Positions 17,186 to 33,446 of a DNA stretch of 64,000 nt are shown here, piece by piece. How positions within the stretch are numbered: position 1 is the stretch's first letter; each line of letters starts with the position of its first letter. The stretch lies in NCBI RefSeq assembly GCF_017377875.1, contig NZ_CP070975.1, positions 2,418,001-2,482,000 on the forward strand, read 5' to 3'. The DNA is from Alcaligenes sp. SORT26. GTDB taxonomy: Bacteria > Pseudomonadota > Gammaproteobacteria > Burkholderiales > Burkholderiaceae_B. A program made the translations under genes and the position numbers. The notes beneath the pieces were generated by a model. It saw only the letters and a program-made list of their open reading frames with translations. It was not told where the DNA came from and did no database searches.

Positions 17186-17208
17186 TGCCTGGGCCTCATC
17201 AAAGCTTA

Positions 17209-18314
<1,106 letters not shown>

Positions 18315-18434: not shown

Positions 18435-19241
18435 TTAGTAAGCTGCGCCGGGCTGAGCAATTGGCACCTCAACCTCGTCCTTGAACTGACCCAGCAAAGC
18501 CGTTGCCGCCTGCCGCAACAACACTGCATCTACGCCTACGGCCACAAACAAGGCGCCTAAGGACTGATAGTGATGCGCTGCCTCGACATTCGACTGCAGG
18601 ATTCCAGGGGCTTTACCCGCCTTGCTGATACGCACAATCGCATCCTCGATGGCTGACAAGACATCTGGATGCCCTGGTTCGGTCAAATACCCCATGCTGG
18701 CCGCCAAATCCGCCGGGCCAATGAAAACACCATCCACACCCTCCACCGCCAGAATTTCGTCCAGGTTATCCAGCGCCTCACGAGTTTCCACCTGGCAAAT
18801 CACGCACATTTCCTGGTTAGCTCGCGCCACATAATCCGTGGTCGCTCCCCAACGAGCAGCACGAGCCAGAGCTGCACCTACCCCTCGAATACCCTGCGGA
18901 GGATAACGTGTCGCAGCAACAGCCGCTTTAGCCTGTTCAGCGTTTTGCACCATAGGAATCAACAGATTCTGAGCCCCCATATCCAGCAGCAGCTTGATCT
19001 GCACAGGGTCGTTCCAGCTAGGACGCACAATCGGCGCGATGGGATGAGCGGATACGGCCTGCAACTGCGCCAGCAAGGTCTGTACCGTATTGGGAACATG
19101 CTCGCCATCCAGCAAGATCCAGTCATAGCCCAGACCGGCACATAAATCAGCCACGTATGGGCTGGCCAAACCGTGCCACAAACCAATCTGAGACTTGCCC
19201 TGCCGCAAAGCCTGCTTGAACGCATTGACTGGATGATTCAT
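18435..19241 (-). CDS. HpcH/HpaI family class II aldolase
   Basis: A 268-residue metal-dependent pyruvate aldolase of the HpaI (4-hydroxy-2-oxoheptanedioate aldolase) type. ATG 19241 was chosen because a strong AGAGGGGAAG ribosome-binding site precedes it; a start 30 bp upstream lacks one. Conserved elements: LDGEHVPNT near residue 43 with the catalytic histidine, [17 protein letters not shown], the metal-binding glutamate in [10 protein letters not shown] and the aspartate in [12 protein letters not shown]. The family cleaves 4-hydroxy-2-oxo acids to pyruvate plus an aldehyde. The substrate here is unknown; no homoprotocatechuate genes are adjacent. Its promoter region holds a 12-bp inverted repeat. 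Confidence 0.88.
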
Positions 19242-19276
19242 GTCTTCCCCTCTTATGTGCTTAGGCGTCAAATGAA

Positions 19277-19330
19277 CAGTGTAAAGCGATCCTGCTACTA
19301 CACAAGGTGAACAGGGAACGCTTTACACTG
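19277..19330. repeat. 12-bp perfect inverted repeat upstream of the HpaI-type aldolase
   Basis: CAGTGTAAAGCG (19277-19288) and CGCTTTACACTG (19319-19330) are exact reverse complements, 30 bp apart and 42 bp centre to centre (about four helical turns). They lie 36-89 bp upstream of the aldolase start and just after the membrane protein stop. The half-site TGTAAAGCG resembles LacI/GntR-type operator halves. A two-site looping operator or a long-loop 3' hairpin of the upstream gene are both possible. Confidence 0.65.
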
Positions 19331-19340
19331 GACGGCAAGC

Positions 19341-20243
19341 CTAAGCCACCCTCTTGCGCTGATGAAAGAGGAGAACGGCACTTAAGGAGAAGCCCGAGAC
19401 CAAGAGGGCGGCCACAGGCAGCAAAGTCAATGACTGCGGCGGGAACACATAGGCAAGCAAAGGAAATGCATACACGGCGGGCATGCGCATCTTGAACACA
19501 CGTAATAAGCCCCACATCAGCAGCATGTCGATTACGACTACCCAGATCCAATTCGAGATCAACAAAAATAACGTCACGCCGATTGCTGCAGACAAAGTCA
19601 GCACGACAGTTTGCTTAAGGACCATCCGCCAGGAATACATCTTCATATGCAAAGACTCGTACACCACTACGGCGACCGGTGGCAACACCGCCAACTGGAT
19701 ATAACCCAGGGCCGCAGCAATCCCCATACTGGCTAAAACAATCGCCCCATACACCCACAAGATCGACGTTTGAACGACACTGGTGCGATCCGCTGTACGG
19801 CGCAACTTTCCCAACACCACGGCCAGCATCAGCAAGAACGTGCTGAGCAGGATAGCAGCCACAAACGAGTACTCTATCGCATTGGTGACCACGGGCAAAA
19901 AACCCGTCGCCAGAGCCGGGGCCAGGCTGTAGCGAAACAAGGCAAAGAACAACAGCATCGCCACCAACACAAATGCCAACTTGAGCGCAAAGGGAATAGC
20001 CAGCAAGTTGATCCCAAAGCCCAGCAGGGCCGTGACCGTAGGCCAAAGAAAAATCTTCTCCGGGTGACGCATCCAGTTTTGCTCGCGATACGCCAACAAA
20101 GCTACGGCCATCGCCGCAATTTCTGGCAAGACTATTTCACGGTCATCCCAAAAGCTCGCCGCTGCCACCATCGTCACAATGAAGACAAACGCAACAAGGT
20201 ACGAACCGCTTTCCTGGCGAGGCGTCAATTTCTCTGACTGCAT
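19341..20243 (-). CDS. Polytopic membrane protein, HPP-like
   Basis: A 300-residue integral membrane protein with about eight to ten hydrophobic segments. Landmarks: DDREIVLPEIAAMAVALLAYREQNWMRHPEKIFLWPTVTALLG in the N-terminal half (the acidic/aromatic loop and P-T motif recall HPP family proteins), then paired TMs to the basic C-terminus HQRKRVA. I do not recognise a specific function and the HPP resemblance is tentative. It is transcribed toward the aldolase gene with a 99-bp gap containing an inverted repeat. Confidence 0.65.
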   Translation of the reverse strand: MQSEKLTPRQESGSYLVAFVFIVTMVAAASFWDDREIVLPEIAAMAVALLAYREQNWMRHPEKIFLWPTVTALLGFGINLLAIPFALKLAFVLVAMLLFFALFRYSLAPALATGFLPVVTNAIEYSFVAAILLSTFLLMLAVVLGKLRRTADRTSVVQTSILWVYGAIVLASMGIAAALGYIQLAVLPPVAVVVYESLHMKMYSWRMVLKQTVVLTLSAAIGVTLFLLISNWIWVVVIDMLLMWGLLRVFKMRMPAVYAFPLLAYVFPPQSLTLLPVAALLVSGFSLSAVLLFHQRKRVA

Positions 20244-20435
20244 GATTGAACCCTTTCAAAGCAACGAACTGCACGCTCGTTGCCAGACTGAAAACGCCAG
20301 TCTCAGGCTTCCCCTTACAGGAAGGTCAAGCAGTCTATTTTTTGTGCGCAAGACCCGGCCCCTGAGGCGCTCAGGCCAGAGGCAGCATATTTTTCTAAAG
20401 GGCTCTAAGGTCTGAGCTTGAAAAGAAGTCGCCAA

Positions 20436-20465
20436 CGAGAGTGCTCAGGATCGAATCCACTCTCG
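20436..20465 (-). terminator. Possible terminator of the ABC transporter operon
   Basis: CGAGAGTG (20436-20443) and CACTCTCG (20458-20465) form an 8-bp stem with a 14-nt loop, 12 bp after the ABC ATPase stop. On the minus strand a short TTCTTTTC tract follows about 10 nt later. Weak as an intrinsic terminator. Confidence 0.4.
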
Positions 20466-20477
20466 ATCAGGCTGAAA

Positions 20478-21221
20478 TTACAAGGCTTGGCCGAGCTCTT
20501 TGACCAAGTCCCCGAAACGGGCAGTATTACGATCTCTGGGGCGTGGCAAATCGATCTCGATCCGGGCACTGACGCCAGCCGGACTCCCCCCTAATACGAT
20601 GACGGTATCAGCCAAAAACACCGCTTCATCAATATCGTGTGTCACGAACAGCACTGCGGCCGAACTACGCTGCCAAACCTGAACCAGCTCATCCTGCAAG
20701 GCCTGACGTGTCAAAGCATCCACGGCAGAAAAGGGCTCGTCCATCAAAAGCAAATCCGGCTGCACGGCTAAGGCCCGGGCAATACCGACTCGCTGCACCT
20801 GACCACCCGACAACTGATGTGGCCAACGATCTTTCAAGTGCGCCAGGCCTACCTGATTCAGGGCCGCATCAACACGCTGATCCAGTTCCTGACGCGACAG
20901 ACCCAAACCTTCCAGGCCATACGCCACGTTGGAGGCAATACGACGCCAGGGCAACAAGCGACTGTCCTGAAACACAAAGGCATTCGCCCGACGGCCAGGG
21001 CTATCTTGCAGGTTGGATCGCAAATGGCCGAAGCTGGGCTGGCTCAAACCGGCTGCCGCACGCAACAAGGTGCTCTTGCCTACCCCCGAGCCGCCCACAA
21101 TGGCCACAAAATGCCCTGCCTGAACATCCAGATTCACATCACGGATCACAGGTGCAGGTGCACCGGGGTATTGAAAACCAAACCCCTGAAACTGAATCAA
21201 GGCTGCCACTGAAGTACCCAT
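20478..21221 (-). CDS. ABC transporter ATP-binding protein, NitT/TauT type
   Basis: A 247-residue ABC ATPase of the SsuB/TauB/NrtD group. Walker A is GGSGVGKST near residue 43, Q-loop FVFQDSRLLPWR, signature LSGGQVQRVGIARAL near residue 141, Walker B LLLMDEPFSAVD and the H-loop FVTHDIDEAV. It energises import through the permease encoded immediately upstream, whose gene it overlaps by 25 bp. Third gene of a substrate-binding protein-permease-ATPase operon. Likely substrates of the class are sulfonates, taurine, nitrate or pyrimidine precursors; sequence alone does not decide. Confidence 0.9.
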   Translation of the reverse strand: MGTSVAALIQFQGFGFQYPGAPAPVIRDVNLDVQAGHFVAIVGGSGVGKSTLLRAAAGLSQPSFGHLRSNLQDSPGRRANAFVFQDSRLLPWRRIASNVAYGLEGLGLSRQELDQRVDAALNQVGLAHLKDRWPHQLSGGQVQRVGIARALAVQPDLLLMDEPFSAVDALTRQALQDELVQVWQRSSAAVLFVTHDIDEAVFLADTVIVLGGSPAGVSARIEIDLPRPRDRNTARFGDLVKELGQAL

Positions 21222-22024
21222 TTATTGAAAGTCAGAAAAAGCATGTCGCACACGGTATAAACCACCGAGATGATCAACATATAGACCACGACCGCGTCAT
21301 AGGCGCCAACCCCGGCAGCCGCATTCATTTCCTGACCCATGCCAGGCACCCCCAAGAGCTCGGCGGCAATCAGGGTCATCCAGGCCTGCCCAATACCCGC
21401 ACGTACGCCACTCAGCAAACCGGGGCTGATCGCAGGCAGAACCACAGTCCAGGCACGTGAGAAGTACGAGTTATGCCCAAAGGCTGCGGCCAACTCGTAA
21501 TAACGTGGATCCACCGAACGCACAGCGCTATACGTTGCAAAGTAGTTCAACCAGAACACACCAATTGCAATCACAAAGGCCGCGCCGGTATGGCTAACCT
21601 TGAACCAGGCAATGGCAAACACCACCCACGCCAAAGGCGGGATAGGACGCAGCAAACGCACCAAATAGGCTTGCAGCAAATCAAAACGATGAATGGTTGC
21701 CGCGGCAAGACCAAAGACAATGCCCAGAATCGTCCCGATACCCAGGCCCCAGAAATAATGCACCAGACTGGATTGAGCGGCAGGCCAGAGACGACCAGCC
21801 TCGATTTCCTGAAACAAGGCAGACGGCAGACTTAAAGGATCTGGCAAGGTACCGCGCGGAGCCCAGCCATAGACATAAGCCAGTCGCCACACCAGGATAA
21901 ACAAGGCCAGACCAGCCACACCATAAACAATCCGCTCCAGACCACGACGCCATAAGGCATCAACCAAGGCACCCGCAGGTGCAGGTGCTGCGGCGGGCAA
22001 ACTTGCTTGTTTCGCAACGCTCAT
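21197..22024 (-). CDS. ABC transporter permease, NitT/TauT type
   Basis: A 275-residue inner-membrane permease with about six membrane segments. The cytoplasmic EAA loop, which contacts the ATPase, is near residue 185 (ELAAAFGHNSYFSRAWTVVLPAISPGLLSGVRAGIGQAW), matching the SsuC/TauC signature. The N-terminal 30 residues are Ala/Pro-rich and cytoplasmic. The start codon overlaps the stop of the binding protein gene by 1 bp (TAATG), indicating translational coupling. Confidence 0.9.
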   Translation of the reverse strand: MSVAKQASLPAAAPAPAGALVDALWRRGLERIVYGVAGLALFILVWRLAYVYGWAPRGTLPDPLSLPSALFQEIEAGRLWPAAQSSLVHYFWGLGIGTILGIVFGLAAATIHRFDLLQAYLVRLLRPIPPLAWVVFAIAWFKVSHTGAAFVIAIGVFWLNYFATYSAVRSVDPRYYELAAAFGHNSYFSRAWTVVLPAISPGLLSGVRAGIGQAWMTLIAAELLGVPGMGQEMNAAAGVGAYDAVVVYMLIISVVYTVCDMLFLTFNKWVLQWQP

Positions 22025-23037
22025 TACGGTGCTGCCTTCTCATAAAAGCGAACGTCAAACAGGCTTTGAACATCATCCAGCTTGGTCGCCAGCGTGCCTA
22101 AAGAAACCTGAAAGTCCTGCAACTGAACCGTGCCATCAATAATCTTGCGGGGGTCAGGCTGGAACTGATCACGTGAACGCTCGATAGCAGCCTGCACAAT
22201 ATCCTTGGGCAAGCGACCACCGCCTACGTACTTCTGTACATACGGCGTAGCCTTGGCAGGCTCATCGCGCAGCATAGCAGTGGCACGCAGGTGAGCATTC
22301 ACCAAATGCTGAACCAGATCAGGATTGGATTTGATCAGACCTTCACGTACCAGCAGCACCGAGCCAGGCTCATTAGGAAACAGCTCACCACCATGCGCCA
22401 CGATTTTGGCATCAGGCTGGCGTTGCAGAATCTGGCTAACCGTAGGTTCCAGAATAGCTGCAGCATCCACAGCATGGTTGCTCAAGGCCTGCTGAATCTG
22501 AGCCTCGCCCTGATAAATCACTTCGACCACGCCTGGGTCGACCTTCAACATATTGCGCAACCAGTATTGCAAGGCAGCCTCAGGCACCGCTCCTTTGGGG
22601 TAGCTGGCAACCTTGGGTTTATGCCCTTTTTCCTGAGTGAATTTAGCGACAGCAGCAGCGAAATCCGGCTTGTCTGCATCCAGGTAGCTGGACAGATCAC
22701 CAATTGCCACCACGCTGACCTGCTCCACAATATTGGAGGCCACCACCTTGACGTCTGCTTCCTTGGCCTTGGCCACCAGAGCGGGGCCAATACCAACGTA
22801 AGCCACATCCAACTGACCAGCAATCAAGGCCTGGGTCAGCGCTGGGCCGCTTTGAAACTGAACCAGCTTGGGATCCGGCTGCCCTTCAGGCAGTAAGTCA
22901 CCCGATCCTAAGCCCACGAACAATTGAGCAGCAGGCATGATGGGCAAATAGCCGATCTCCAGCGCTTGCTCGGCAGCCTGTGCGGAGAAGGAAACAGAGA
23001 GGGCAAGAAGGCTGGGGGCTAAATAACGGGAAAACAT
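22024..23037 (-). CDS. ABC transporter substrate-binding protein, NitT/TauT type
   Basis: A 337-residue periplasmic binding protein. A signal peptide is clear (MFSRYLAPSLLALSVSFSAQAA, cleavage near residue 22). The mature part begins LEIGYLPIMPAAQLFVG, the typical first strand of the SsuA/NMT1-like fold, and includes QSGPALTQALIAGQLDVAYVGIGPAL near residue 65. First gene of the operon. Which anion or sulfonate it binds is not evident; no monooxygenase gene such as ssuD or tauD is adjacent. Confidence 0.88.
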   Translation of the reverse strand: MFSRYLAPSLLALSVSFSAQAAEQALEIGYLPIMPAAQLFVGLGSGDLLPEGQPDPKLVQFQSGPALTQALIAGQLDVAYVGIGPALVAKAKEADVKVVASNIVEQVSVVAIGDLSSYLDADKPDFAAAVAKFTQEKGHKPKVASYPKGAVPEAALQYWLRNMLKVDPGVVEVIYQGEAQIQQALSNHAVDAAAILEPTVSQILQRQPDAKIVAHGGELFPNEPGSVLLVREGLIKSNPDLVQHLVNAHLRATAMLRDEPAKATPYVQKYVGGGRLPKDIVQAAIERSRDQFQPDPRKIIDGTVQLQDFQVSLGTLATKLDDVQSLFDVRFYEKAAP

Positions 23038-23213
23038 AAAGATCTCGTGAAACAGGCGAAAACTGAAGCTTAAACCTGTTGGAGAGACGCATCTTTATTT
23101 GCTTATAACTAAAAATAATAAAAATGGGATTCTTTAGAGCGTGGTGGTTAGCGCCTTGTACGCATACCTATACGCATTTCCCCTGTAGCTCTAGTAAATG
23201 GCAAGTACTTTTA

Positions 23214-23582
23214 TTAGCGAGTAATAAAGTAGGTGCCAACCATCAAGAAGAGCACGCCCACCAGCTTATTAAAGGTAAGAAGTTCGCCGAAAAACAGCCA
23301 GGCCAATATCAAACCAACTAAATATCCTAGTGACAACAATGGATAGGCAACACCGACCTCTAGCTTGGAGAGCACAACAACCCATACCCCAAAGCTTAGA
23401 ACATACAAAACCAACCCTCCAGTTATGAAGGGATTGAATATTGCCCGGAAAATAGAATAAACAACCCCTTTTTCAGGGAGAAATAAAATATGAAGAGAAT
23501 TGGTCCCAGCCTTCAAAAGCATCTGCGCGAAGGTATTCAATAAAACAGCGGACAAAACCAAACCAATCTGAGCAACGCCCAT
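23214..23582 (-). CDS. SMR/EmrE-like small membrane protein, possible polyprenyl-phosphate-sugar flippase subunit
   Basis: A 122-residue protein with four predicted membrane helices (about 4-24, 48-72, 76-95, 100-120), the layout of small multidrug resistance proteins and of the ArnE/ArnF flippase subunits. Landmarks are NTFAQMLLKAG near the N-terminus and LEVGVAYPLLSLGYLVGLILAWLFFGE in the second half. It lacks the membrane-embedded glutamate in helix 1 that EmrE uses for drug/proton antiport, which favours the lipid-sugar flippase type. It starts 1 bp after the PAP2-like gene, so it belongs to the polyprenyl-phospho-pentose cluster. Role inferred from context. Confidence 0.72.
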   Translation of the reverse strand: MGVAQIGLVLSAVLLNTFAQMLLKAGTNSLHILFLPEKGVVYSIFRAIFNPFITGGLVLYVLSFGVWVVVLSKLEVGVAYPLLSLGYLVGLILAWLFFGELLTFNKLVGVLFLMVGTYFITR

Positions 23583-23583
23583 T

Positions 23584-23985
23584 CTAAATTCCTAAAAGGT
23601 GTACTACCAAAGCCACTCCCGCACCAACCAGGCAGCCAGCCATAATCTCCGTTTTGCTATGACCAATTCTTTCTCTAAGGTTAAGTCCCCCTAGTTTGTT
23701 TAAAGCTATTGCATGTTTTTCGATCTGCTTGCGCAGACTATTAGCATCAAGCAAAACAATAAACATTAAGGCTATTGAAACACCTAGAGCTGGGCTTGAA
23801 AGCCCTTCTTTTAAATAAACAAGAACAGCCATGCTACTAACAATAGAGCTATGATTGCTAGGCATGCCACCATAACCAACCAAATCAAAAGCAAGACGCC
23901 TAGCTCGCAAACTATTTATAAGGAACTTTAAAACCCCTGCAACTAGCCATGCTAAAAATGGAGTTGATATATATGCGTAGGTCAT
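23584..23985 (-). CDS. Divergent PAP2 (DUF212-type) membrane phosphatase-like protein
   Basis: A 133-residue membrane protein of the divergent PAP2 family, with the signature GGMPSNHSS near residue 40 and GHSKTEIMAG near residue 108. ATG 23985 was chosen because it lies 2 bp after the stop of the upstream gene; an in-frame extension upstream would overlap that gene. In mycobacteria a PAP2-type protein (Rv3807c) sits beside the DPPR synthase Rv3806c and is thought to remove the 5-phosphate from decaprenyl-phosphoryl-5-phosphoribose. The same neighbour relation here suggests the same step, but the divergent-PAP2 family itself has no firm biochemical function. Confidence 0.75.
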   Translation of the reverse strand: MTYAYISTPFLAWLVAGVLKFLINSLRARRLAFDLVGYGGMPSNHSSIVSSMAVLVYLKEGLSSPALGVSIALMFIVLLDANSLRKQIEKHAIALNKLGGLNLRERIGHSKTEIMAGCLVGAGVALVVHLLGI

Positions 23986-23987
23986 AA

Positions 23988-24827
23988 TTAAAAATAAAGC
24001 TGATAAACAACAACGGAAAGCCAAGAAATAACAATCATTAAAATAGGCTTATCATTTATAACAGCGTCGGTTGGCGACTCTCCTTGATCAGAAGAATCAA
24101 TAATGTACCAATATCTGAAAATACCGAACAAGATAATTGGAACAGTTAAAACCAAATCAGGCTTAGACTCAAGAACAAACATACTATAAAAAACGATAGT
24201 ACAAGTAGCCGCTGTTTCTACGTACTTACGCACCAAATCACTTGAATATTTTTTTAATGCCTCTCTGGTTACTCCGCCAGAATTCTTGAGCTCCTGCTCC
24301 CTCTTTACAGCAGCCAAATAAAGGGATAATGACAATACGGTAATCAACATCCAGTTTGAAACTGGAACCTGTATCGCCAGTGCACCAGCATACACTCTAA
24401 GAACAAATCCCAACGCAACGGTAAAAATATCAACAACGGGAATATGCTTTAGATATTTCGTATACGCGACATTAACAACAATGTAAAAAGAAAGAATAAA
24501 AAAAACCTGGTAATTCAGGAGCAAAGAAAAAGCGACTACAACATAGCAAAACAACAGCAAAAAAACAGACTGTAAAACAGAAACTTCACCACTGGCCAAG
24601 GGACGAAAACGTTTTTTTGGATGCAAGCGATCTTTCTCTACATCGCCGATATCATTAACAATATAAACGGACGAAGCAGCAAAAGAAAAAAAACAGAAAG
24701 CCAATAATGATTTTATTATTGAATCAGAAGATAGCATCATGCCGGAAAAAACCAACGGAGCAAAAACAAAAAAGTTCTTGACCCATTGCTTTGGCCGCAT
24801 AAGGCGTAGAAGAGATAAACTATTCAT
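23988..24827 (-). CDS. Polyprenyl-phosphate phosphoribosyltransferase (DPPR synthase-like, UbiA superfamily)
   Basis: A 279-residue UbiA-superfamily prenyltransferase. The first aspartate motif is NDIGDVEKDRLHPKKRFRPLASG near residue 58 and a second acidic site is near residue 190. The N-terminus RLMRPKQWVKNFFVFAPL and the PKKRFRPLASG string are typical of decaprenyl-phosphate phosphoribosyltransferases such as Rv3806c, which attach 5-phosphoribose from PRPP to decaprenyl phosphate, rather than of UbiA. About eight TM segments. It overlaps the upstream GT-C gene by 8 bp. Likely product: polyprenyl-phosphoryl-5-phosphoribose, a donor precursor for ribofuranose or, after epimerisation, D-arabinofuranose. 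Confidence 0.85.
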   Translation of the reverse strand: MNSLSLLRLMRPKQWVKNFFVFAPLVFSGMMLSSDSIIKSLLAFCFFSFAASSVYIVNDIGDVEKDRLHPKKRFRPLASGEVSVLQSVFLLLFCYVVVAFSLLLNYQVFFILSFYIVVNVAYTKYLKHIPVVDIFTVALGFVLRVYAGALAIQVPVSNWMLITVLSLSLYLAAVKREQELKNSGGVTREALKKYSSDLVRKYVETAATCTIVFYSMFVLESKPDLVLTVPIILFGIFRYWYIIDSSDQGESPTDAVINDKPILMIVISWLSVVVYQLYF

Positions 24828-26220
24828 CCGACCTCCAGCTCAATAAAATAGCTGAGACAGCAAACAACATAAATGGCATGATAGACAAAGCATATCTGGA
24901 TTGAACTTCAAAAACAAAATAGAAGACAATCATTTGAAAAACATAAGCACAGGCAGAAAAATATAAAAATTCTCTTATATTATTTTTATTCCTTTTTTTG
25001 AAAAAATAAATCACTAAAGAAATAAAAAACAAAATAAGAAGAATGTAATATAAATGCGAATTTATTTTCTCGGACAAAGAAGCATATTCCTGACCAACCT
25101 TATGCTCTGGGTTATTATTGGCCCAAAAGAACACCCCGCCCGAAGGAACCCATAAAGTTTTAATTTTCTGCTTATATGAAAACTTTACGAATCCTGGAAA
25201 ATCATCAAAAATCCGAGAATAAATCTCTTTCTTCACTGCCTCGCCAACCTTACCTTCATCCCCTAGCGAAGTCCGCAAGTCCTGCACAAACCCGACATCA
25301 TCAGTGTTATATAGCCCGTTATGATTCTTATTAGTCCCGAACAAAAGCACATAACCACCCATGCCGTGATTTGAGTTGACACTAAAAAACCCCTGGTACG
25401 CACTATTCAAAAGAGCATGCGAAGAAAATACCAAGAACAAAGGGATCAAAAAACAAATAACGGACTTAATAGCCCTATCGGAATATAAAAAGACACCAAC
25501 AAGAAAAGGGAAAATCAAAAAAACAGAGGTAGGCCTGGAGTAATAAGCAAAACCAATAAAAAAAGCACTAAAAACCAAGAAAAACAAGCTTTTTGTTTTT
25601 ACAAATCGAAGAAAAACAAAAAGGGAAATGAATATATAAAGAAGATAGGTCGCCTCGCTGGAAACCACCGCTGTATAAACAAAAATCGACGGAAAAAGCG
25701 CATATAAAAAAGCTATAAAAGTAGATATTTTTCCACTTTGCCCCAGCTCCAGCATAATCGCTCTTACTACAACTGCCTGCAACGCCCAACACGCCGCCGC
25801 TGTTATAGAAGCAGCCAGATAACTGACACCCAACAACTTCATTCCAAATGCATAAACAATAGAACTCGACGGGTACTTAGAGCTTGTCCATACCTGAAAA
25901 AAATTTCCGTCTAAAAACCTGACAGCATCATTGTAATAAATTAAATAGTCGCTTTCTGGAATAGTTTGAACACTGAAAGCCCAGGCAACATAAGGGATAA
26001 ATACAGAAAAAAACAATAAAACAGGCGAGAGATCAAAGAATCTCCGCGCCAAAAAAAAACCGATTAAAGAAACAGAGACAATAGAAAAAAAAGAAAAGTA
26101 ATATTCACTCGTCAGATGGATAGTTCGAGAAAAATAAAATATCAAATACAAAAAAAACGGCAAAAAAACAAGTCGAAGAAAATTAAAACCTGAACCTAGA
26201 TTAAAGAAAGACCTGACCAT
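24820..26220 (-). CDS. GT-C type membrane glycosyltransferase (PMT/ArnT-like fold)
   Basis: A 466-residue protein with about eleven membrane segments. ATG 26220 was chosen because GGTGGA precedes it at good spacing; the alternative at 26229 is a GTG. The first extracytoplasmic loop has an acidic motif (TIPESDYLIYYNDAVRFLDG, near residue 90), which in GT-C enzymes positions the polyprenyl-phosphate sugar donor. A soluble region (about 280-385) contains FGTNKNHNGLYNTDDVGF. It is very AT-rich. Its place directly before the DPPR synthase suggests that it transfers the polyprenyl-linked pentose to a periplasmic glycan; this is inference. Confidence 0.75.
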   Translation of the reverse strand: MVRSFFNLGSGFNFLRLVFLPFFLYLIFYFSRTIHLTSEYYFSFFSIVSVSLIGFFLARRFFDLSPVLLFFSVFIPYVAWAFSVQTIPESDYLIYYNDAVRFLDGNFFQVWTSSKYPSSSIVYAFGMKLLGVSYLAASITAAACWALQAVVVRAIMLELGQSGKISTFIAFLYALFPSIFVYTAVVSSEATYLLYIFISLFVFLRFVKTKSLFFLVFSAFFIGFAYYSRPTSVFLIFPFLVGVFLYSDRAIKSVICFLIPLFLVFSSHALLNSAYQGFFSVNSNHGMGGYVLLFGTNKNHNGLYNTDDVGFVQDLRTSLGDEGKVGEAVKKEIYSRIFDDFPGFVKFSYKQKIKTLWVPSGGVFFWANNNPEHKVGQEYASLSEKINSHLYYILLILFFISLVIYFFKKRNKNNIREFLYFSACAYVFQMIVFYFVFEVQSRYALSIMPFMLFAVSAILLSWRSDE

Positions 26221-26261
26221 GTATTCCACCGCAAATTAATAAAAAATAAAAGCCAGCTTGC

Positions 26262-28460
26262 TTAAGACCTGTTTCCATTGGGAAACAAGGGAACCAACGT
26301 CTCGATTCTCGCCTTCCAATCATTCTCATCTGCCATCTGGCGTAACCTAGCTTGATAAGCTGGATCATCTTTCACATCAAAAGCCTGCTGGATTCTCTCA
26401 ACATACTCATCAACGGAGCTGGCTGAAAAAACCTCTGGATAAATAGTGCACTCATCCATTGCTGAGGTCACAACCACTGGAACCTCCATCGCAAAATATT
26501 CAAATAGCTTTAGAGGGGAGGTAGTACGAGCTATCTCACCTGGCTCGAAAGGGATAATTGCCACATCAAAATGTTGTGAATAGGCAGGCAGGATAGAGTA
26601 ATTAATCGGTCCTAGCCAAATAACATTATCCGTTTTCGGCAGCTTCTCACTTCCACCAAAATAATCCGGGCCTAAGTAAACAAAGCCACACGCTGGCATG
26701 CGAGTAGCAAGCTCTGCTAAAACCTCATACCACAACCAAGGAGCCAAGGCACCAAAATAGCCAACAATACGTTTATAACGTTTCAAAAATTTTGTATATT
26801 CATCAGGCAAAGCAATATGTGTCCAATCCTGCCGATAATGCTGACAGTCAACTCCATTGGCCACAAATAGAACCTTATCTTTCCCAACTGCAGTTATAGA
26901 CTCATCGACCAAAGCCTTAGATGAGGCAACGATATAATCTGCATCGCCAGAAAAAGCATAGTTTTTAAGCTTCAATAAACTCTCAACTGTATTGCCAGAT
27001 ATAGCTGGGTCTATATGATCAATATACTCATAAATCATAGTATTTCCCTCCAATAGATGAGGGCCATACTCAGGCACAACAGCATAGGCTGTGCTATAGA
27101 TTGATCGCAGCACACCTTTCAAATTTGCTGATTCAGGAGCATTCACCAACCATACGTTGTCTCCCATATAACGCACGCCCCGCAAATTATCCCGATCCAG
27201 GCTGCGCGTCTCATAGATAACCAGATAACCAGAACGCCCCATCGCCGAAGCAATATGTTGAGGTCGTTGAAATAATGGGACAGTCCAGTCAATAGCTACT
27301 GATTGTACAAAAACGCCTTTATATTTATCCCTATGCACGAGGACATTCGCCTCAAACTGATCCCAGCTTAAATCAGTCGCTCCAGGCACGGATGTTACCG
27401 CTGCCAAACCACCGAGAGAAACTGGCTCAGCACTTTGAATCAGACGACGTTTCCACGCTACGTAGTTACGAGCATCACCCCAGAACCTCAAAGGGTTCCG
27501 AACAAGGCGAGCGAGCACTCGCAAAGGACGGGTCAGTTTCCAGGAAGTCGACAGTCTAATGGCGTTGACCGCCTCGTCTTTCTGCCGCATTACATTCTGT
27601 AGATCTGCATTCCGCTCCTGCAAACGCTGATTCTTTGTTACCTGCTCCTGCAGTTCGGCCTTTGAGATACTAAGCTTCTTCAAACTCTCCGAAACCTGCT
27701 CCAGAGAATCCTTTAACACACGGGAAAACTCGTTCTCCATATGTGCGAGTACAACACCATGTCGAGATAAGGAATCACTTTCATAGCCTGATTCAATATG
27801 CATATTTCCCAAGGTCAAATTCATCTGATCAAACCATTTTTTATTGGCATAAACCAAAATAATCTGATCACCATCCCACATACTAGATGGCAAAATACTG
27901 CAATCTACCACCTTCGACCAAACCAGGTCGAATCCATTAACTGCAACCGGAACATTCTTATCTGTAAAAGTAAAAAAATGCTCATCAATGCGATCAAGCT
28001 CCCTATAAGGAAGAGCAAGAATCAAACCTAATTCAGCTTTCTCAGAAATACGAATCAAAACATCAAAAGGATTATGAAAATGCTCTAAAGTATTAGATGA
28101 AAAAATAAAATCATACGATTTAATATCATCTAAACCCTGATCATCCAGCCAGTTTTGATCTAGAAACTCCAATTCTGGATATTTGGACTTTGCCGTGGCG
28201 ATAGATTCACTAGAAAAATCAATGCCTGTTAACTTTTTTGGGTTAAAAAAATTAGTTAGAACATTTAAACCATCGCCTTGAGCACATCCCCAGTCTGCAA
28301 CAGCCAATCCATCCGACCGTATTACCTGAATAAGCCAGGACGGTAAATTATCCATAGCCACCGTTGCAAAAAACTTCGACTGCTCGGGCCCCAAATTATC
28401 CGCCCAATCTGTGGCAAACCTATTTTCCCAGTATTTTTTCGTATTAATATCGCTGTTCAT
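26262..28460 (-). CDS. Methyltransferase - coiled coil - glycosyltransferase fusion protein
   Basis: A 732-residue three-part protein. Residues about 1-210 are a class I SAM methyltransferase (ADWGCAQGDGLNVL, TGIDFSSESI, FIFSSNTLEHFHNP). Residues about 240-300 are a heptad-rich coiled coil (LKDSLEQVSESLKKLSISKAELQEQ and on), followed by the STSWKLTRPLR linker common in polysaccharide enzymes. Residues about 362-725 form a TuaH-like GT-B glycosyltransferase (VPLFQRPQHIASAMGR, YEYIDHIDPAISGN, VANGVDCQHYRQDW, TTSPLKLFEYFAMEVPVV). The GT part is a close paralogue of the gene at 30559-31830. It overlaps wzt by 1 bp (TAATG). Likely role: elongation plus terminal methylation of the Wzm/Wzt glycan, analogous in layout to WbdD; inferred. 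Confidence 0.85.
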   Translation of the reverse strand: MNSDINTKKYWENRFATDWADNLGPEQSKFFATVAMDNLPSWLIQVIRSDGLAVADWGCAQGDGLNVLTNFFNPKKLTGIDFSSESIATAKSKYPELEFLDQNWLDDQGLDDIKSYDFIFSSNTLEHFHNPFDVLIRISEKAELGLILALPYRELDRIDEHFFTFTDKNVPVAVNGFDLVWSKVVDCSILPSSMWDGDQIILVYANKKWFDQMNLTLGNMHIESGYESDSLSRHGVVLAHMENEFSRVLKDSLEQVSESLKKLSISKAELQEQVTKNQRLQERNADLQNVMRQKDEAVNAIRLSTSWKLTRPLRVLARLVRNPLRFWGDARNYVAWKRRLIQSAEPVSLGGLAAVTSVPGATDLSWDQFEANVLVHRDKYKGVFVQSVAIDWTVPLFQRPQHIASAMGRSGYLVIYETRSLDRDNLRGVRYMGDNVWLVNAPESANLKGVLRSIYSTAYAVVPEYGPHLLEGNTMIYEYIDHIDPAISGNTVESLLKLKNYAFSGDADYIVASSKALVDESITAVGKDKVLFVANGVDCQHYRQDWTHIALPDEYTKFLKRYKRIVGYFGALAPWLWYEVLAELATRMPACGFVYLGPDYFGGSEKLPKTDNVIWLGPINYSILPAYSQHFDVAIIPFEPGEIARTTSPLKLFEYFAMEVPVVVTSAMDECTIYPEVFSASSVDEYVERIQQAFDVKDDPAYQARLRQMADENDWKARIETLVPLFPNGNRS

Positions 28461-29716
28461 TACAAGCTCACAGAATTAACTTCCACATCAGGACAAAAAA
28501 CACCAAACATAGTTTCATCGCTGATACTTACAAAATAATGCGCACCTTCATAATATTCATAATAATGAACATCGCTGCCATTCCTCTTCTCTACAGTAGC
28601 AACCAGCAAATACTTACCCGGTGAAAGATAGTTCTTTAGAGAAAAATCGACACGGCGCTCAGAATACTCGCTACCATCATCAATAACCTGTTTCGAAACC
28701 GCAACTACAATATCATTACCTTTCAAGTCTTTTATAGAAAAAGCGACCGTTAAATTATCGTTCGCTATTTCCTCATTCAACTTGTATCTTATCGATATTT
28801 TTATATCCATTCCCCAGGAAATAAGGTCTGCTTTCTTTCCCTGTATATTCTGTACGGCAGCATATTTGATAGTCCCAGTATGAGAACCCCAATGCGAAGA
28901 AGGCCTTGTGTCCAACGACTCGACAAGGTCTATCTGCTCAGGCTCAGTCGACGGGTGATCTGAACTAGTCTGTAATCCATCACTATCCTTGAACATGTAC
29001 TCCATGTATCGGCTTGTGATTGGAAACACGTCACCTACATCTATTTCTTTTCCACGGTCCAACCACAACACACGGTCGCAAAGAGTCCGAATACTAGAAA
29101 TATCATGACTTACGAAAATGATAGTAGCACCTGACTCTTTAATATCATTGATACGGCGCATACACTTGGCCACAAACCGCGCATCTCCCACAGCAAGAGC
29201 CTCATCCACAATGAGTATTTCTGGCTCAACATGAATGGCTACTGAAAATGCCAGCCGTGCATACATCCCACTGGAATAAGTTTTAACTGGCTGATCTATA
29301 AACCCTTCGAGCTCAGAAAACTGGATAATCTCATCTATTTTTTTTTCGATCTTATTTTTTGGATAACCTAATATAGCGGCATTAAGAAATATATTCTCTC
29401 GCCCTGTAAACTCAGGGTTAAATCCAGCCCCTAATTCCAGCAGTGCTGCAATACGGCCGTGAACTTGAATACTCCCTGTTGTTGGCATTACAGTCCCGCA
29501 TATCATTTGCAGCAATGTCGATTTCCCACTCCCATTCCTGCCCACAATACCAAAGGTCTCCCCGCGACGAACTCTCAAGCTCATCTTGTGCAGAGCCGAA
29601 AATTCTCTATAGTATTTTTTATTCTTGCTAAAATACTGCTTCAACCTATCGGAAGGCTTTTCATATATTTTATATATTTTAGAAACGTCTTCTACCACAA
29701 TAAGATCAGAGCACAT
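28460..29716 (-). CDS. wzt: O-polysaccharide ABC exporter ATP-binding protein Wzt with C-terminal carbohydrate-binding domain
   Basis: A 418-residue protein; ATG 29716 was chosen over a TTG six bases upstream. The ABC domain (1-245) has Walker A GRNGSGKST near residue 60, the Wzt-type loop LLELGAGFNPEFTGRENIFLNA, signature TYSSGMYARLAFSVA and Walker B ILIVDEALAVGD. The C-terminal domain (about 280-418) is beta-rich with DIKISIRYKLNEEI and SLKNYLSPGKYLLVATVE, as in the Wzt domain that recognises the modified non-reducing end of the glycan in E. coli O9a. That fits the methyltransferase encoded next. Overlaps wzm by 11 bp. Confidence 0.93.
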   Translation of the reverse strand: MCSDLIVVEDVSKIYKIYEKPSDRLKQYFSKNKKYYREFSALHKMSLRVRRGETFGIVGRNGSGKSTLLQMICGTVMPTTGSIQVHGRIAALLELGAGFNPEFTGRENIFLNAAILGYPKNKIEKKIDEIIQFSELEGFIDQPVKTYSSGMYARLAFSVAIHVEPEILIVDEALAVGDARFVAKCMRRINDIKESGATIIFVSHDISSIRTLCDRVLWLDRGKEIDVGDVFPITSRYMEYMFKDSDGLQTSSDHPSTEPEQIDLVESLDTRPSSHWGSHTGTIKYAAVQNIQGKKADLISWGMDIKISIRYKLNEEIANDNLTVAFSIKDLKGNDIVVAVSKQVIDDGSEYSERRVDFSLKNYLSPGKYLLVATVEKRNGSDVHYYEYYEGAHYFVSISDETMFGVFCPDVEVNSVSL

Positions 29717-30497
29717 CCGCAAAACCCTTTTTCATTTTTTTAAAAAAAACAAATGAAAAAAATGCAAATAAAGAAGAACAAACAAAAGAGAGGAAAACAA
29801 ATAAACCGCCAGGAACTCGACCCCAATAAACGATATCCCTAAAAGCCTCAATAAAGTAAGCCAAGGGATTTATATAAATAAAATTTCTAAAATCAGCGGG
29901 AAGAGCCTCGACAGGATAAAATATTGGGGACAAAAACATCATAACGGTTGTCAATATCCCAACAAACTGATTTATATCCCTCAAATAAACACCAAGCGCC
30001 GAAAGAAACCAAACACATCCAAGCACAAAAAAACACAATGGAATCAAGTAAACCGGAATAAGAACAATTGTCCATTTTGGCAACCCATAAAAAATAGAGT
30101 AAACCAAAACCCAGACTAGAAAACTAATAAAAAAATTAAAAAGGGCGGCACCAACAGTAACAACACCCAAGACCTCAACAGGAAAAACAACTTTCTTGAC
30201 ATAATTCACATTACTGAGAATTATAGTTGGCGCACGATTGATACACTCAGAAAAAAAATTAAAAACAATTAATCCGGAAAAAAGTATTAGCGCAAACTCT
30301 AATTTCCCACCATCAGAATGCCCCCAGCGCGCTTGAAAAATAACGCTAAAGACAAATGTATAAACAACCAGAAGCACCATAGGAACCAACAAGGACCAAA
30401 GCAGCCCAAGAACAGATCCTTTATATTTTGTTTGAATATCTCTATATATCAATATTCTTATTAGATATCGATTTTCAATCAAATCGGAAATTATCAT
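29706..30497 (-). CDS. wzm: O-polysaccharide ABC exporter permease Wzm
   Basis: A 263-residue ABC-2 type permease with six membrane segments. ATG 30497 (MIISDLIENRYLIRILIYRDI) was chosen; the longer frame needs a TTG. Typical family strings are RDIQTKYKGSVLGLLWSLLVPM near the N-terminus, the PTIILSNVNYVKKVVFPVEVL stretch near residue 95 and SPIFYPVEALP near residue 190. With Wzt it exports undecaprenyl-diphosphate-linked polysaccharide across the inner membrane. Strongly AT-rich, like the neighbouring genes. Confidence 0.93.
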   Translation of the reverse strand: MIISDLIENRYLIRILIYRDIQTKYKGSVLGLLWSLLVPMVLLVVYTFVFSVIFQARWGHSDGGKLEFALILFSGLIVFNFFSECINRAPTIILSNVNYVKKVVFPVEVLGVVTVGAALFNFFISFLVWVLVYSIFYGLPKWTIVLIPVYLIPLCFFVLGCVWFLSALGVYLRDINQFVGILTTVMMFLSPIFYPVEALPADFRNFIYINPLAYFIEAFRDIVYWGRVPGGLFVFLSFVCSSLFAFFSFVFFKKMKKGFADVL

Positions 30498-30558
30498 ATA
30501 TTTAAGAATCAAATATTACTGATTAGCTTTAAAAAAAACTTGCCGAAAAAATGGACTC

Positions 30559-31830
30559 TCAACGATTCATAGGTAGCATAAAATTCTTTTTTGGAAACAG
30601 AGACTCCATACTTTTTGCTCTAGCCATCCAATCATTCTCATCGGCTAACTCACGCATACGCATCCTATAACGCTCATCATCTTTCACGGCAAATGCGCGT
30701 TCAATTTGCACAATAAACTCGGATAACGAGCCAGCCGAAAACACTTCTTCGTAGCATGTGCACTCATCCATTGCAGAACTAACCACCACAGGGATCTCTA
30801 GCGCAAAATATTCAAACAATTTCAAAGGAGAGGTTGTTTTAGCTATTTCACCAGGAGAAAAAGGTATTGTTGCTATGTCGAAGTGCTGAGCATACGCTGG
30901 CAATACAGCGTAATCTATTGGCCCAAGCCACAATACATTATCTAGCTCTGGGAGCCTTAGGCTTCCCCCAAAGTAATCAGGCCCAATATAAACGAACCCA
31001 TAATCTGGAAGCTCCTGCGCCAGCTCTGCGATGACCTCGTACCATAGCCAAGGGGCTAACGCGCCAAAGTAGCCAATAATCCTGTCATATCGCCCCAAAA
31101 AACTGGAGTACTGTTCTGGCAAAACTACTTCGCTCCAGTCCTGACGATAGTGACGGGCATCTACCCCATTAGCTACAAACCTAACCTTTGACTCCCCGAC
31201 TTCTGCAACCGACTCCTGAACCAGGGCCTTTGACGAGGCAACGATGTAATCAGCATCGCCCCCGAACGCCAGATTTTTTAGCTGATTCAGAACCTCGACA
31301 TTGTCACCGGAAATGGCAGGGTCAATATGGTCAATGTATTCATATATAACCACATTACCCTCCAGCATGTGCAGGCCGTACTCCCTCAACACTCCATAAG
31401 CGGTGCTGTAAAAGGAGCGTAGAACCCCTTTCAGATGACGGGATTCTCTGGCATGCACCAACCAGACGTTGTCGCCCAAACACCGAGCGCCTGTCACATC
31501 ATCACAGGCCCAACAATGGGTTTCATAGAGCACCAGATAACCAAGACGGCCAAAAGCTTTAGCCATATGCTGTGGGCGCTGGTACAACGGAACATTCCAA
31601 TCGATAACAGCGGACTGAACAAAAACACCCTTGTACTGATCCCGGAACGCCAACACATTCGCTTCAAACTGCGACCAGCTCAGATCATTTTTGCCGTTAC
31701 GGCGCTCCTCGTTACTACGACGGACCTGCTGCCCCAGAATTCTGCGCTTCAAAGGCAGTAATTTTTGTTGTACTCGCCACGGTAACCTGCGGTATATAGC
31801 CCCTAAAAAAGGTTTCAATTTACTAAGCAT
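30559..31830 (-). CDS. TuaH-like glycosyltransferase
   Basis: A 423-residue GT-B type glycosyltransferase. ATG 31830 follows GGGGAAAT closely; an ATG 15 bp upstream is a possible alternative. The N-terminal 45 residues are basic and may bind the membrane. The catalytic part starts at DLSWSQFEANVL and contains VPLYQRPQHMAKAFGR, YEYIDHIDPAISGDN, VANGVDARHYRQDW, IGYFGALAPWLWYEV and TTSPLKLFEYFALEIPVV, with the E-x7-E-like acidic site near the end. It is collinear with the C-terminal half of the fusion protein at 26262-28460 with most residues identical by eye. Likely a chain-extending transferase of the ABC-exported glycan. Confidence 0.85.
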   Translation of the reverse strand: MLSKLKPFLGAIYRRLPWRVQQKLLPLKRRILGQQVRRSNEERRNGKNDLSWSQFEANVLAFRDQYKGVFVQSAVIDWNVPLYQRPQHMAKAFGRLGYLVLYETHCWACDDVTGARCLGDNVWLVHARESRHLKGVLRSFYSTAYGVLREYGLHMLEGNVVIYEYIDHIDPAISGDNVEVLNQLKNLAFGGDADYIVASSKALVQESVAEVGESKVRFVANGVDARHYRQDWSEVVLPEQYSSFLGRYDRIIGYFGALAPWLWYEVIAELAQELPDYGFVYIGPDYFGGSLRLPELDNVLWLGPIDYAVLPAYAQHFDIATIPFSPGEIAKTTSPLKLFEYFALEIPVVVSSAMDECTCYEEVFSAGSLSEFIVQIERAFAVKDDERYRMRMRELADENDWMARAKSMESLFPKKNFMLPMNR

Positions 31831-31870
31831 ATTTCCCCAATCCATTGTCTCTTACAGAGTTAGACGTCAT

Positions 31871-32992
31871 TTAAAGGCGCTTACACAGATAATCGACAAT
31901 GCGCTTACAGGCAGCACCGTCACCATAAGGATTATGGGCGTAGCTCATGGCCTTATAAGCAGCAGAATCATTCAGCAAAACTGCCAGCTCATGGCAAATT
32001 AAGTCAGGATTTGTGCCAACTAGCCGCACCGTACCAGCAATCACTGCTTCTGGTCGTTCCGTTGTGTCGCGCATGACGAGCACAGGTTTGCCCAATGCGG
32101 GAGCCTCCTCCTGAATCCCACCCGAGTCGGTCAAGATGACACTTGAACGACTCATTAGATACACAAACGGTAGGTAATCCTGAGGCTCCAGCAGATACAC
32201 GTTAGGAATTTTGCTCAACAAACGAGCAACAGGCTCTTGTACGTTCGGATTCATATGGACTGGATAAACAAAATCCACCTCGGGAAACGCCTGTGCGCTC
32301 CGACATATGCTTTGACAAATGCGCTCAAACCCATCGCCAAAGCTCTCACGCCTATGGCCAGTGACCAGAACCATTCGGCGCCGTTCGTCCAAAAAATCAA
32401 AACGTTGTGACATCTCTTTGGCTAAAGAAGGCTCAGCCTCCAGTTTCTGTACTACCGACAACAAAGCATCAATAACGGTATTACCTGTCACTACAATATC
32501 TTCAGCCCCTACACCTTCCCGCAACAAGTTCTGACGAGCCTGATCTGTGGGAGCAAAATGGATACAGGTCAAAACACCGGTCAAGCGCCTGTTTCCTTCC
32601 TCGGGCCATGGAGAGTAAATATTGCTCGTCCGTAATCCTGCCTCAACATGACCTACGGGTATCTGATGGTAGTAGGCGGCTAAAGTACTAGCGAAGGTAG
32701 TGGCTGTATCACCATGAACCAGTACCCAATCAGGCCTGAACTGATCAAAAACTCCTTTCAAACCTTGTAAAATTGCCCCTGTCACATCACTCAGGTCTTG
32801 ACCTGGCTTCATGACATTCAGGTCAAAGTCTGGCTGAAGGTCAAAGAGACACAGCACTTGATCCAACATCTGGCGGTGCTGCGCAGTGACACATACCTTG
32901 GTCTCAAACTCCGTTCGCGCGGCTAACTCTCGAACCAAAGGAGCCATTTTTATAGCCTCTGGTCGAGTGCCAAAAACCGTTAAAACCTTCAT
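31871..32992 (-). CDS. wecB: UDP-N-acetylglucosamine 2-epimerase (non-hydrolysing)
   Basis: A 373-residue enzyme interconverting UDP-GlcNAc and UDP-ManNAc. ATG 32992 was chosen for its AGGGAAGG ribosome-binding site and the canonical start [19 protein letters not shown]. Further signatures: [40 protein letters not shown] near residue 95, VTGHRRES and [29 protein letters not shown]. It is the first gene of the minus-strand polysaccharide operon. No wecC is adjacent, so UDP-ManNAc itself may be the precursor used. Confidence 0.95.
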
Positions 32993-33446
32993 GAAACACC
33001 TTCCCTTGAACAAACAAATGTGACCAACGCAGGATCCACCAAGAAGCACGCTCTGGATGCAACCAGACAGCTTACACGCTTAATAAACCAATCGTACAAC
33101 CGCCCGAGACAAGACGTATCTATTACTTGTCACATGGAGCAGTTAAGAAACAGAACACTACATATACCCGGCAATATGGACTGATTATTTAGCTTTATCC
33201 CTGCATATACGGGATGGCCTAATTACCGGTTTTATAAAAAATCATGAAACTGAAATTCGGAACCCTATGTATTTATAAAACTAACCAGCTCATAAATTTG
33301 CCACCATTTTTAATCACTTGCGCCAAACTGATATTGGCATACCCAATGAACTCTGGGCGTTTTAGAACTCATATAAAATATCAGTTTGAACAACGCTTCC
33401 TATAACAAGTCTTAGTTCAGGATGGTACTACCCATCCCATTTTTCC
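32993..33446. other. 454-bp divergent intergenic region between wecB and GT2
   Basis: An AT-rich, gene-free stretch separating the leftward wecB operon from the rightward glycosyltransferase genes. It should hold both promoters. I find no convincing -35/-10 pair, no JUMPstart/ops motif (GGCGGTAG) and no RNA gene by eye. Confidence 0.6.

Follow-up and report, generated by a model that had tools for sequence, protein, structure and literature searches.

Kelly et al. described three-component pentofuranose systems in 2024 (PMC11127046). In Citrobacter youngae O1, a polyprenyl-phosphate phosphoribosyltransferase (PPPRS), a small EmrE/ArnE-like flippase and a GT-C glycosyltransferase were characterised by mutants, an in vitro assay and NMR, and the set adjoins an ABC-type O-antigen locus with a CBM-bearing Wzt (PMC11127046). 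The GT-C component belongs to CAZy family GT136, and the small flippase was labelled a MATE-family protein. In C. youngae O2, the sugar is xylofuranose and the epimerase is the SDR protein ORF13 (PMC11127046). The phosphatase is treated as variable, and the main text does not mention DUF212 or PAP2 (PMC11127046). In the mycobacterial decaprenyl-phosphoryl-arabinose pathway, the proposed phosphatase is the separate PAP2-superfamily protein Rv3807c, and the flippase Rv3789 was assigned to the SMR family by Kelly et al. (PMC11127046). In Pseudomonas paraeruginosa (PSPA7_6245-6251), D-arabinofuranose is found on type IV pilin, and a related donor pathway was proposed to supply it.

We analysed a 64,000-nucleotide stretch of the Alcaligenes sp. 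SORT26 genome (the window). It contains four adjacent genes that, judged by their families, belong with the three-component systems, and thus the general idea is already known. The preliminary description had treated the locus as a surprising Gram-negative copy of the mycobacterial pathway; this is superseded by the 2024 work on C. youngae, which established such a three-component scheme. The four genes probably form a periplasmic pentofuranose-addition system on an ABC-transporter-dependent polysaccharide locus, with ribofuranose supplied and attached via PPPRS, a DUF212 protein, an SMR-like protein and a GT-C protein (Table 1).

Table 1. Genes of the four-gene set and of the adjoining polysaccharide locus (positions in the window)
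Feature	Position	Strand	Prediction or profile match
SMR-like (EmrE/ArnE/ArnF-like) small membrane protein (122 aa)	23214..23582	minus	predicted Und-P-pentose flippase
DUF212 "divergent PAP2" membrane protein (133 aa)	23584..23985	minus	predicted ribose-5'-phosphatase, lipid-linked intermediate
PPPRS, polyprenyl-phosphate phosphoribosyltransferase, UbiA superfamily (279 aa)	23988..24827	minus	
GT-C membrane glycosyltransferase (466 aa)	24820..26220	minus	predicted periplasmic pentofuranosyltransferase
Methyltransferase and glycosyltransferase fusion, candidate chain terminator	26262..28460	minus	Pfam Methyltransf_12, Glyco_trans_1_4
Wzt, ABC exporter ATPase with C-terminal carbohydrate-binding domain	28460..29722	minus	ABC_tran, Wzt_C
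Wzm, ABC exporter membrane subunit	29706..30512	minus	ABC2_membrane
Glycosyltransferase, TuaH-like	30559..31845	minus	NF047676, 85 bits, below cut-off 550
WecB-type UDP-GlcNAc 2-epimerase	31871..33049	minus	TIGR00236, 509 bits, cut-off 210

The tight packing noted in the preliminary description was reproduced: with ATG starts, the GT-C and PPPRS frames overlap by 8 bp, and gaps of 2 bp and 1 bp precede the DUF212 and SMR-like frames, respectively; all four are on one strand. An earlier TTG start of the DUF212 gene, produced by the ORF finder, has no backing from DUF212 relatives. The GT-C start is simply the first ATG, as no homologues were found with which to compare starts. The region is indeed AT-rich, with G+C of 36-41% at 23001-26000 versus 54-56% at 16001-23000. 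A plasmid or phage origin was considered and rejected, as the plasmid collection searched contains no DNA nearly identical to window positions 20000-30500. PPPRS relatives, every one with identity below 60%, occur in 97 plasmid records and in one 6.6-kb phage record. The middle of the methyltransferase/glycosyltransferase fusion has the look of a coiled coil, as judged by eye.

Profile searches placed the four proteins in the EamA/SMR, DUF212, UbiA and PMT_2 families. The UbiA protein scores 226.3 bits with the NCBIfam model NF008978 "decaprenyl-phosphate phosphoribosyltransferase" (cut-off 207), and falls below the cut-offs of two further models bearing that name (NF008977, 215.5 against 234; NF008976, 166.7 against 474), whereas quinone and heme prenyltransferase models yield 42.7 bits at most. 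The closest PDB entry is that of Rv3806c (8j8j, E 2.1e-39), other UbiA proteins matching at 1.5e-11 or weaker. The protein carries the catalytic NDxxDxxxD motif as well as R-x2-E in loop IV, and N58 D59 D62 D66 and R176/E179 are invariant in a five-sequence alignment. By these sequence features the protein is a PPPRS, predicted to transfer 5-phosphoribose. The NF008978 score and the Rv3806c match rule out a quinone or heme prenyltransferase, and the earlier assignment as DPPR-synthase-like stands.

The SMR-like protein matches EamA weakly, exactly at the cut-off (28.2 bits), and lies below the cut-offs of Multi_Drug_Res (21.9 against 23.7) and the NCBIfam ArnF model (52.2 against 99); its match to EmrE in PDB has E 0.003. 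The GT-C protein has many hydrophobic segments and scores 36.2 bits with Pfam PMT_2 (gathering score 26.1). It has no sequence match in PDB at E<=1 and no homologue besides itself in 398 genomes of the phylum at E<=1e-5; its single-sequence structure model is unusable (pLDDT 44).

The DUF212 protein clearly belongs to PF02681 "Divergent PAP2 family" (101.2 bits, cut-off 26.5). The classical PAP2 motif consists of PSxH plus R...H...D/E, with K-x6-RP. In an alignment of 38 sequences, the two histidine motifs can be recognised as P42 S43 H45 and R104...H109-x3-E113, all these residues and K20 being invariant, and K-x6-RP is not evident. The AlphaFold2 model (pLDDT 91.6) gave modest matches in the VIA structural search (best Z 8.2 over 101 residues), with PgpB among the nearest structures; the top 22 matches all belong to what we take to be the PAP2/haloperoxidase superfamily. 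Foldseek found no match at E<=0.001. All 38 sequences have their conserved loops on the K/R-rich side, presumably facing the cytoplasm. No function for DUF212 was found in the literature searched. The family is also present in Bacillus subtilis, Synechococcus, Thermus, Deinobacterium, Thermotoga and Lactococcus, which served as control rows.

The context of PPPRS genes was compared in two samples: the best 80 of at least 581 confirmed relatives (47 from the clade of the window protein and 33 more distant) and a further 83 loci with NF008978 matches outside the window whose flanks were taken. The fragment G324:C164 (74.9 bits) and, as general UbiA proteins, listed hits of at most 35.8 bits were left out of the NF008978 set. 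For loci cut short by a contig end, such as L147 with about 400 bases after PPPRS, absences count as lower bounds. The tree came from a quick search, had no outgroup and contained flagged long branches.

Among the best 80 of at least 581 relatives, DUF212 lies immediately 3' of PPPRS in 29 of the 47 close loci versus none of the 33 distant ones. Altogether this order was observed in 33 of the 163 other loci, each time on the same strand and with DUF212 directly downstream; being so recurrent, it is not a chance juxtaposition. Across the order, DUF212 is rare, being encoded in only 10 genomes out of 399, and in five of these, including the genome of the window, it stands beside PPPRS. DUF212 occurs in clade loci both with DprE1 (24/36) and without it (10/16), as expected of a step preceding epimerisation. 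The HAD-type phosphatase domain (HAD-PRP) was found in none of 34 DUF212 loci versus 53 of 130 loci without DUF212. This exclusion was dismissed as independent evidence, since it reflects one phylogenetic split, with two independent pairs on starred branches and no power.

We give slightly better than even chances to the view that DUF212 adds a structurally distinct ribose-5'-phosphatase to the HAD-type PRP and the proposed Rv3807c. It would present a minimal four-helix PAP2-like core acting at the cytoplasmic face, immediately after PPPRS and before both epimerisation and flipping. It is rather unlikely, though worth serious consideration, that DUF212 acts on another phosphate, e.g. on C55-PP like PgpB, or assists PPPRS, with a housekeeping phosphatase making Und-P-ribose. 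The structural similarity to PgpB, a C55-PP phosphatase, points in this direction, as does the distribution of the family: of the ten genomes of the order with DUF212, five have it away from PPPRS. Further, in 18 of the 47 clade genomes the PPPRS locus has no DUF212, and none was found elsewhere in these genomes. Therefore DUF212 is not strictly required for a PPPRS of this clade, and some other phosphatase must serve there. However, PPPRS and DUF212 are tightly paired, and the pairing extends over several classes. Moreover, an Und-P-sugar donor releases Und-P, not Und-PP, and thus the module gives no particular reason for having a C55-PP phosphatase. Finally, PgpB-type enzymes have the active site on the periplasmic side, whereas the DUF212 loops are predicted to be cytoplasmic.

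The type of flippase may bear on the sugar. In the clade, SMR flippases are found in 6 of 16 loci without DprE1 versus none of 36 with it, a difference that is not significant in a sign test over independent pairs; outside the clade, SMR and DprE1 occur together in three loci (L044, L046, L121). GtrA, presumably also the family of the mycobacterial Rv3789, is encoded near 33 of the 36 DprE1 loci of the clade. The rule that GtrA occurs only with DprE1 was dropped, as GtrA is also near 2 of the 16 clade loci without DprE1. GtrA proteins are present at L153 and L163 (Commensalibacter). The pattern in the clade, SMR without DprE1 and GtrA mostly with it, hints at which pentofuranose is exported. 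This suggests a possible rule of thumb for genomes, distinguishing surface glycans with ribo- or xylofuranose from those with arabinofuranose.

Xylofuranose, formed by an unlinked SDR epimerase, is an improbable product, although there is a precedent in C. youngae O2 with ORF13 (PMC11127046) and, of the six clade loci with SMR, three (L050, L146, L154) have an SDR gene between flippase and PPPRS. The genome does have other SDRs, such as the RmlB-like protein at 39058-40125. However, the four-gene set contains no SDR epimerase, and a search of the genome with the L050 SDR, run with no positive control, gave nothing at E<=0.001; these two observations favour ribose over xylose.

The acceptor could instead be a protein such as pilin, as suggested by the related donor pathway proposed to serve pilin arabinosylation in P. 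paraeruginosa. We assign this a low probability, as the four genes are collinear with the Wzm/Wzt/glycosyltransferase genes and start 41 bp downstream of them. Similarly, the DprE1-free relatives L067 and L149 and the one on a Marivivens plasmid are surrounded by polysaccharide genes.

The preliminary description had noted the absence of DprE1 from the window, and the search of the complete genome also found none: the best match to NF053785 (cut-off 500) has 55.9 bits and covers the FAD domain only, whereas a DprE1-like protein from the L049 cluster reaches 341.5 bits. Of four matches in the genome, the strongest is another oxidase, since it contains FAD-oxidase_C. ALO was not found in the genome. 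The DprE2 model NF053786 (cut-off 250) yielded 29 SDR matches, the best with 84.7 bits; the L049 protein, itself below the cut-off, has 161.4 bits, and the scores therefore leave some room for a divergent DprE2. Thus D-arabinofuranose made by DprE1 and DprE2 encoded elsewhere in the genome is very improbable and largely refuted, even though 36 of the 52 clade PPPRS genes have a DprE1-like gene no more than 6 kb away. Ribose is preferred to arabinose because the genome has no DprE1 and clade SMR flippases occur only without DprE1. Of the two sugars initially suggested, ribofuranose is therefore favoured, and D-arabinofuranose with an epimerase encoded elsewhere found no support in a genome where neither DprE1 nor a specific DprE2 was found.

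The attribution of transfer, dephosphorylation, flipping and glycan addition to one gene each is supported by families, context and comparative genomics. At the cytoplasmic face, PPPRS would transfer 5-phosphoribose from PRPP to a polyprenyl phosphate (presumably Und-P), yielding Und-P-ribose-5-P. DUF212, as a small PAP2-like membrane protein with predicted cytoplasmic loops, would remove the 5'-phosphate. The SMR-like protein would flip Und-P-ribofuranose, and GT-C would decorate the Wzm/Wzt-exported polysaccharide with ribofuranose (probably alpha), prior to ligation to lipid A-core. The 2024 finding of pentofuranose addition in the periplasm would thereby gain a branch that uses a candidate phosphatase of its own, and a concrete function is proposed for DUF212, a family that also occurs, e.g., in B. 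subtilis and Thermus.

Delftia sp. (L135), Acidovorax sp. (L143) and Acinetobacter venetianus (L152) have PPPRS of the same clade with adjacent DUF212; unlike the locus considered here, their clusters contain DprE1- and DprE2-like genes and a divergently oriented GtrA gene. The mycobacterial pathway shares the PPPRS, homologous to Rv3806c, and differs in having DprE1, which was not found here, and in its phosphatase, the candidate here being of the DUF212 family. The P. paraeruginosa genes resemble this set in being Gram-negative and in combining a PPPRS-derived donor with GT-C; there, arabinose is placed on pilin. With C. youngae O1 and O2 the locus shares the UbiA-fold PPPRS, a small four-helix flippase (a weak match here), GT-C, and Wzm/Wzt with Wzt_C. 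The C. youngae GT-C extends at least to residue 652 and has a C-terminal CBM, whereas the protein here has 466 residues. No HAD-PRP was found within 6 kb of the window PPPRS. The new part is thus the phosphatase: in C. youngae a HAD (PRP) domain, joined to PPPRS in one protein, serves as the 5'-phosphatase, and here its place would be taken by a separate DUF212 protein.

The four genes in the Table form a tight cluster, the first two overlapping by 8 bp and the subsequent gaps being 2 bp and 1 bp. The G+C content is 36-41% over 23001-26000 versus 54-56% over 16001-23000. Thus the ORF starts and the G+C profile bear out the preliminary description of a packed, AT-rich set. The gene of the polyprenyl-phosphate phosphoribosyltransferase (PPPRS) was not found in nine other species of the genus: 6 of 10 genomes matched, yet beyond the window's own genome there were just five weak matches of 20-21 bits. 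The stretch is likely a recent horizontal gain.

Table. Genes of the minus-strand set at 23214-26220
Product	ATG start	Strand	Place in set
GT-C protein, PMT_2-type	26220	-	first
PPPRS (UbiA protein)	24827	-	second
DUF212	23985	-	third
SMR/EamA-type protein, 122 aa	23582	-	last

The PPPRS scores 226.3 bits with the NCBIfam model NF008978 'decaprenyl-phosphate phosphoribosyltransferase' (curated cut-off 207), 180.8 bits with NF006088, which models the HAD-fused form (cut-off 351), and at most 42.7 bits with models of quinone, heme and other prenyltransferases. Its nearest solved structure is Rv3806c of M. tuberculosis (8j8j, E 2.1e-39), the remaining UbiA proteins matching at 1.5e-11 or weaker. 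This confirms its initial assignment as DPPR-synthase-like. The NDxxDxxxD motif and R-x2-E of loop IV are invariant across five aligned members of its clade. DUF212 matches the 'divergent PAP2' family model at 101.2 bits (cut-off 26.5). The SMR/EamA-type protein is nearest to ArnF, ArnE and EmrE, under their equivalog cut-offs. The GT-C protein matches PMT_2 at 36.2 bits (cut-off 26.1) and had no further homolog at E<=1e-5 among 398 genomes of the phylum; its structure model is unusable (pLDDT 44). In outline, the proposed pathway of transfer, dephosphorylation, flipping and glycan addition is supported.

DUF212 was observed in just 10 of 399 genomes of the order, directly downstream of PPPRS in five, the window among them. 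The other five all belong to one family (f7) and share an unrelated conserved neighbourhood; the neighbours of these stand-alone genes (L127-L131), which have no PPPRS link, look by eye like genes of TerC type and of RND efflux. In a sample of the phylum, DUF212 matched in 4 of 396 genomes, three over the cut-off, and two of these three are PPPRS-linked (the window and genome G486). High-scoring NF008978 matches in the 399 genomes come in two forms, free-standing and fused to a HAD-type phosphatase; with flanks taken for 83 PPPRS loci beyond the window, the fused form accounts for 40 of 84 loci, window included.

Eighty named loci, the best of the matches listed when 84,980 species genomes were scanned, were compared. 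Where identity to the window PPPRS is 47% or more, DUF212 adjoins PPPRS at 29 of 47 loci; at the other 33, which are more distant, it never does. The whole set includes 34 loci with DUF212, each with the gene on the same strand, 12-38 bases past the PPPRS domain (192 in one). They come from Alpha-, Beta- and Gammaproteobacteria, one Desulfobulbaceae MAG and one Nitrospinae MAG. A quick tree built from 164 PPPRS domains places the window within a clade of 52 (SH-aLRT 99), of which 34 have DUF212 and 18 do not. The HAD-type phosphatase occurs at 0 of 34 DUF212 loci versus 53 of 130 loci without DUF212. However, no HAD-bearing row falls inside the clade, and thus this exclusion represents one split, not many. 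The tight conserved pairing suggests a phosphatase role for DUF212. Counting against this role, the 18 clade genomes lacking DUF212 beside PPPRS have no match to it anywhere. No functional paper on DUF212 was found in the literature searched.

The model of DUF212 (133 aa, pLDDT 91.6) has four long helices. In structural alignment, the top 22 solved structures have Z from 8.2 to 5.7, although values of this size can arise among helical proteins and the first unrelated rows likewise have Z 5.7. All 22 belong to the PAP2 or vanadium-haloperoxidase superfamily, including PgpB of B. subtilis and E. coli, LpxE and acid phosphatases. Foldseek alone yielded no significant match. The patterns PS-x-H45 and R104...H109-x3-E113 are invariant in DUF212 sequences and resemble PAP2 motifs 2 and 3. 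In each of 38 sequences, both conserved loops are found on the side rich in K and R (mean K+R 7.8 versus 0.4, conserved arginines included), and are thus predicted to be cytoplasmic by the positive-inside rule. PPPRS would form its product in the same compartment, and the dephosphorylated lipid would then be taken up on the cytoplasmic side by DprE1/DprE2, the epimerisation enzymes of the arabinofuranose route, or by a flippase.

Within the clade, DUF212 is about as frequent with DprE1 (24 of 36 loci) as without it (10 of 16). SMR flippases occur only without DprE1 (6/16 versus 0/36; Fisher p 4e-4, relatedness of loci still included, as in the GtrA comparison), and flippases of the other type, GtrA, occur near 33 of the 36 loci that have DprE1 and near 2 of the 16 that lack it. 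Over all 164 loci, DprE1 is present at 44 of 48 GtrA loci and absent at 19 of 22 SMR loci. Independent-pair sign tests were not significant, with median p 0.125 for GtrA (counts of 32 at DprE1 loci and 0 at others, without two Commensalibacter GtrA proteins) and 1 for SMR.

Arabinofuranose made via an epimerase elsewhere in the genome, an option initially allowed, is not supported. A search of the complete genome revealed no DprE1: there is no ALO domain, and the best match to the DprE1 model NF053785 is a FAD-oxidase_C protein, matched in the FAD domain only (55.9 bits, cut-off 500). For comparison, the L049 cluster has a DprE1-like protein that scores 341.5 bits, also under the cut-off. The DprE2 search matched 29 SDRs, the best at 84.7 bits. 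In three SMR-type relatives (L050, L146, L154), an extended SDR separates the flippase from PPPRS, possibly a sign of xylofuranose. No SDR was observed at this place in the window, L067, L149 or the Marivivens plasmid. With neither DprE1 found in the genome nor an SDR in the set, ribofuranose is kept as the simplest reading of the product.

Other PPPRS loci vary in arrangement. At 17 loci that have cluster c2 immediately upstream (L047, L051, L053, L059, L060 and others), PPPRS is free-standing and comes after a PMT_2 GT-C gene, with no match to DUF212, HAD-type phosphatase, DprE, GtrA or SMR within 6 kb. This arrangement is seen in many of the order's genomes, often next to genes for DAHP synthase or SCO1. 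PPPRS forms the C-terminus of far longer ORFs, possible fusions, in L048 (5123-7888, 922 aa) and L075 (5663-7867, 735 aa). A protein of 101-113 aa (cluster c21), with no Pfam match in the one scanned, lies directly upstream of PPPRS in L054, L057, L064, L071 and L076. A 169-kb Marivivens plasmid (L219, NZ_CP018573.1) carries an EamA-GT4-PPPRS-'divergent PAP2' module. A PPPRS relative with 33% identity is encoded at 4874-5740 of the 6.6-kb human faecal record MT837543.1 ('Bacteriophage sp.'); Kelly et al. (PMC11127046) likewise mention a phage-encoded case.

Directly upstream of the set, on the same strand and with small gaps or overlaps, are genes for a methyltransferase-glycosyltransferase fusion, Wzt with a Wzt_C domain, Wzm, a glycosyltransferase and WecB. 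In the fusion (26262-28460), which adjoins the CBM-bearing Wzt, the domains are joined by a charged linker, probably coiled-coil by eye; it is a candidate terminator of chain length, by a logic like that of WbdD. The region 35068-39031 encodes a Bac_transf initiating transferase, a Wzy_C ligase/polymerase-like protein and a Wzx-like flippase beside the ABC exporter genes, and thus two export routes may sit side by side.

The genes directly upstream of the set have the layout of an ABC-exported polysaccharide whose chain is ended by a terminator and whose exporter binds the terminus, as in Citrobacter youngae O1. According to Kelly et al. (2024, PMC11127046), alpha-ribofuranose is added there to the O-antigen after polymerisation, which was shown with mutants, in vitro assay and NMR. 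The enzymes are a GT-C protein and a PPPRS that carries a fused HAD phosphatase. A small flippase resembling EmrE/ArnE, termed MATE-family by the authors, was a prediction in that work; an extra SDR epimerase leads to xylofuranose, and DprE1/E2 homologs go with arabinofuranose systems (PMC11127046). The module in the window is of the same kind, but the phosphatase differs, being fused to PPPRS in C. youngae and here putatively a separate DUF212 protein. The type of system is already known; the new element relative to the HAD-fused system is the DUF212 branch.
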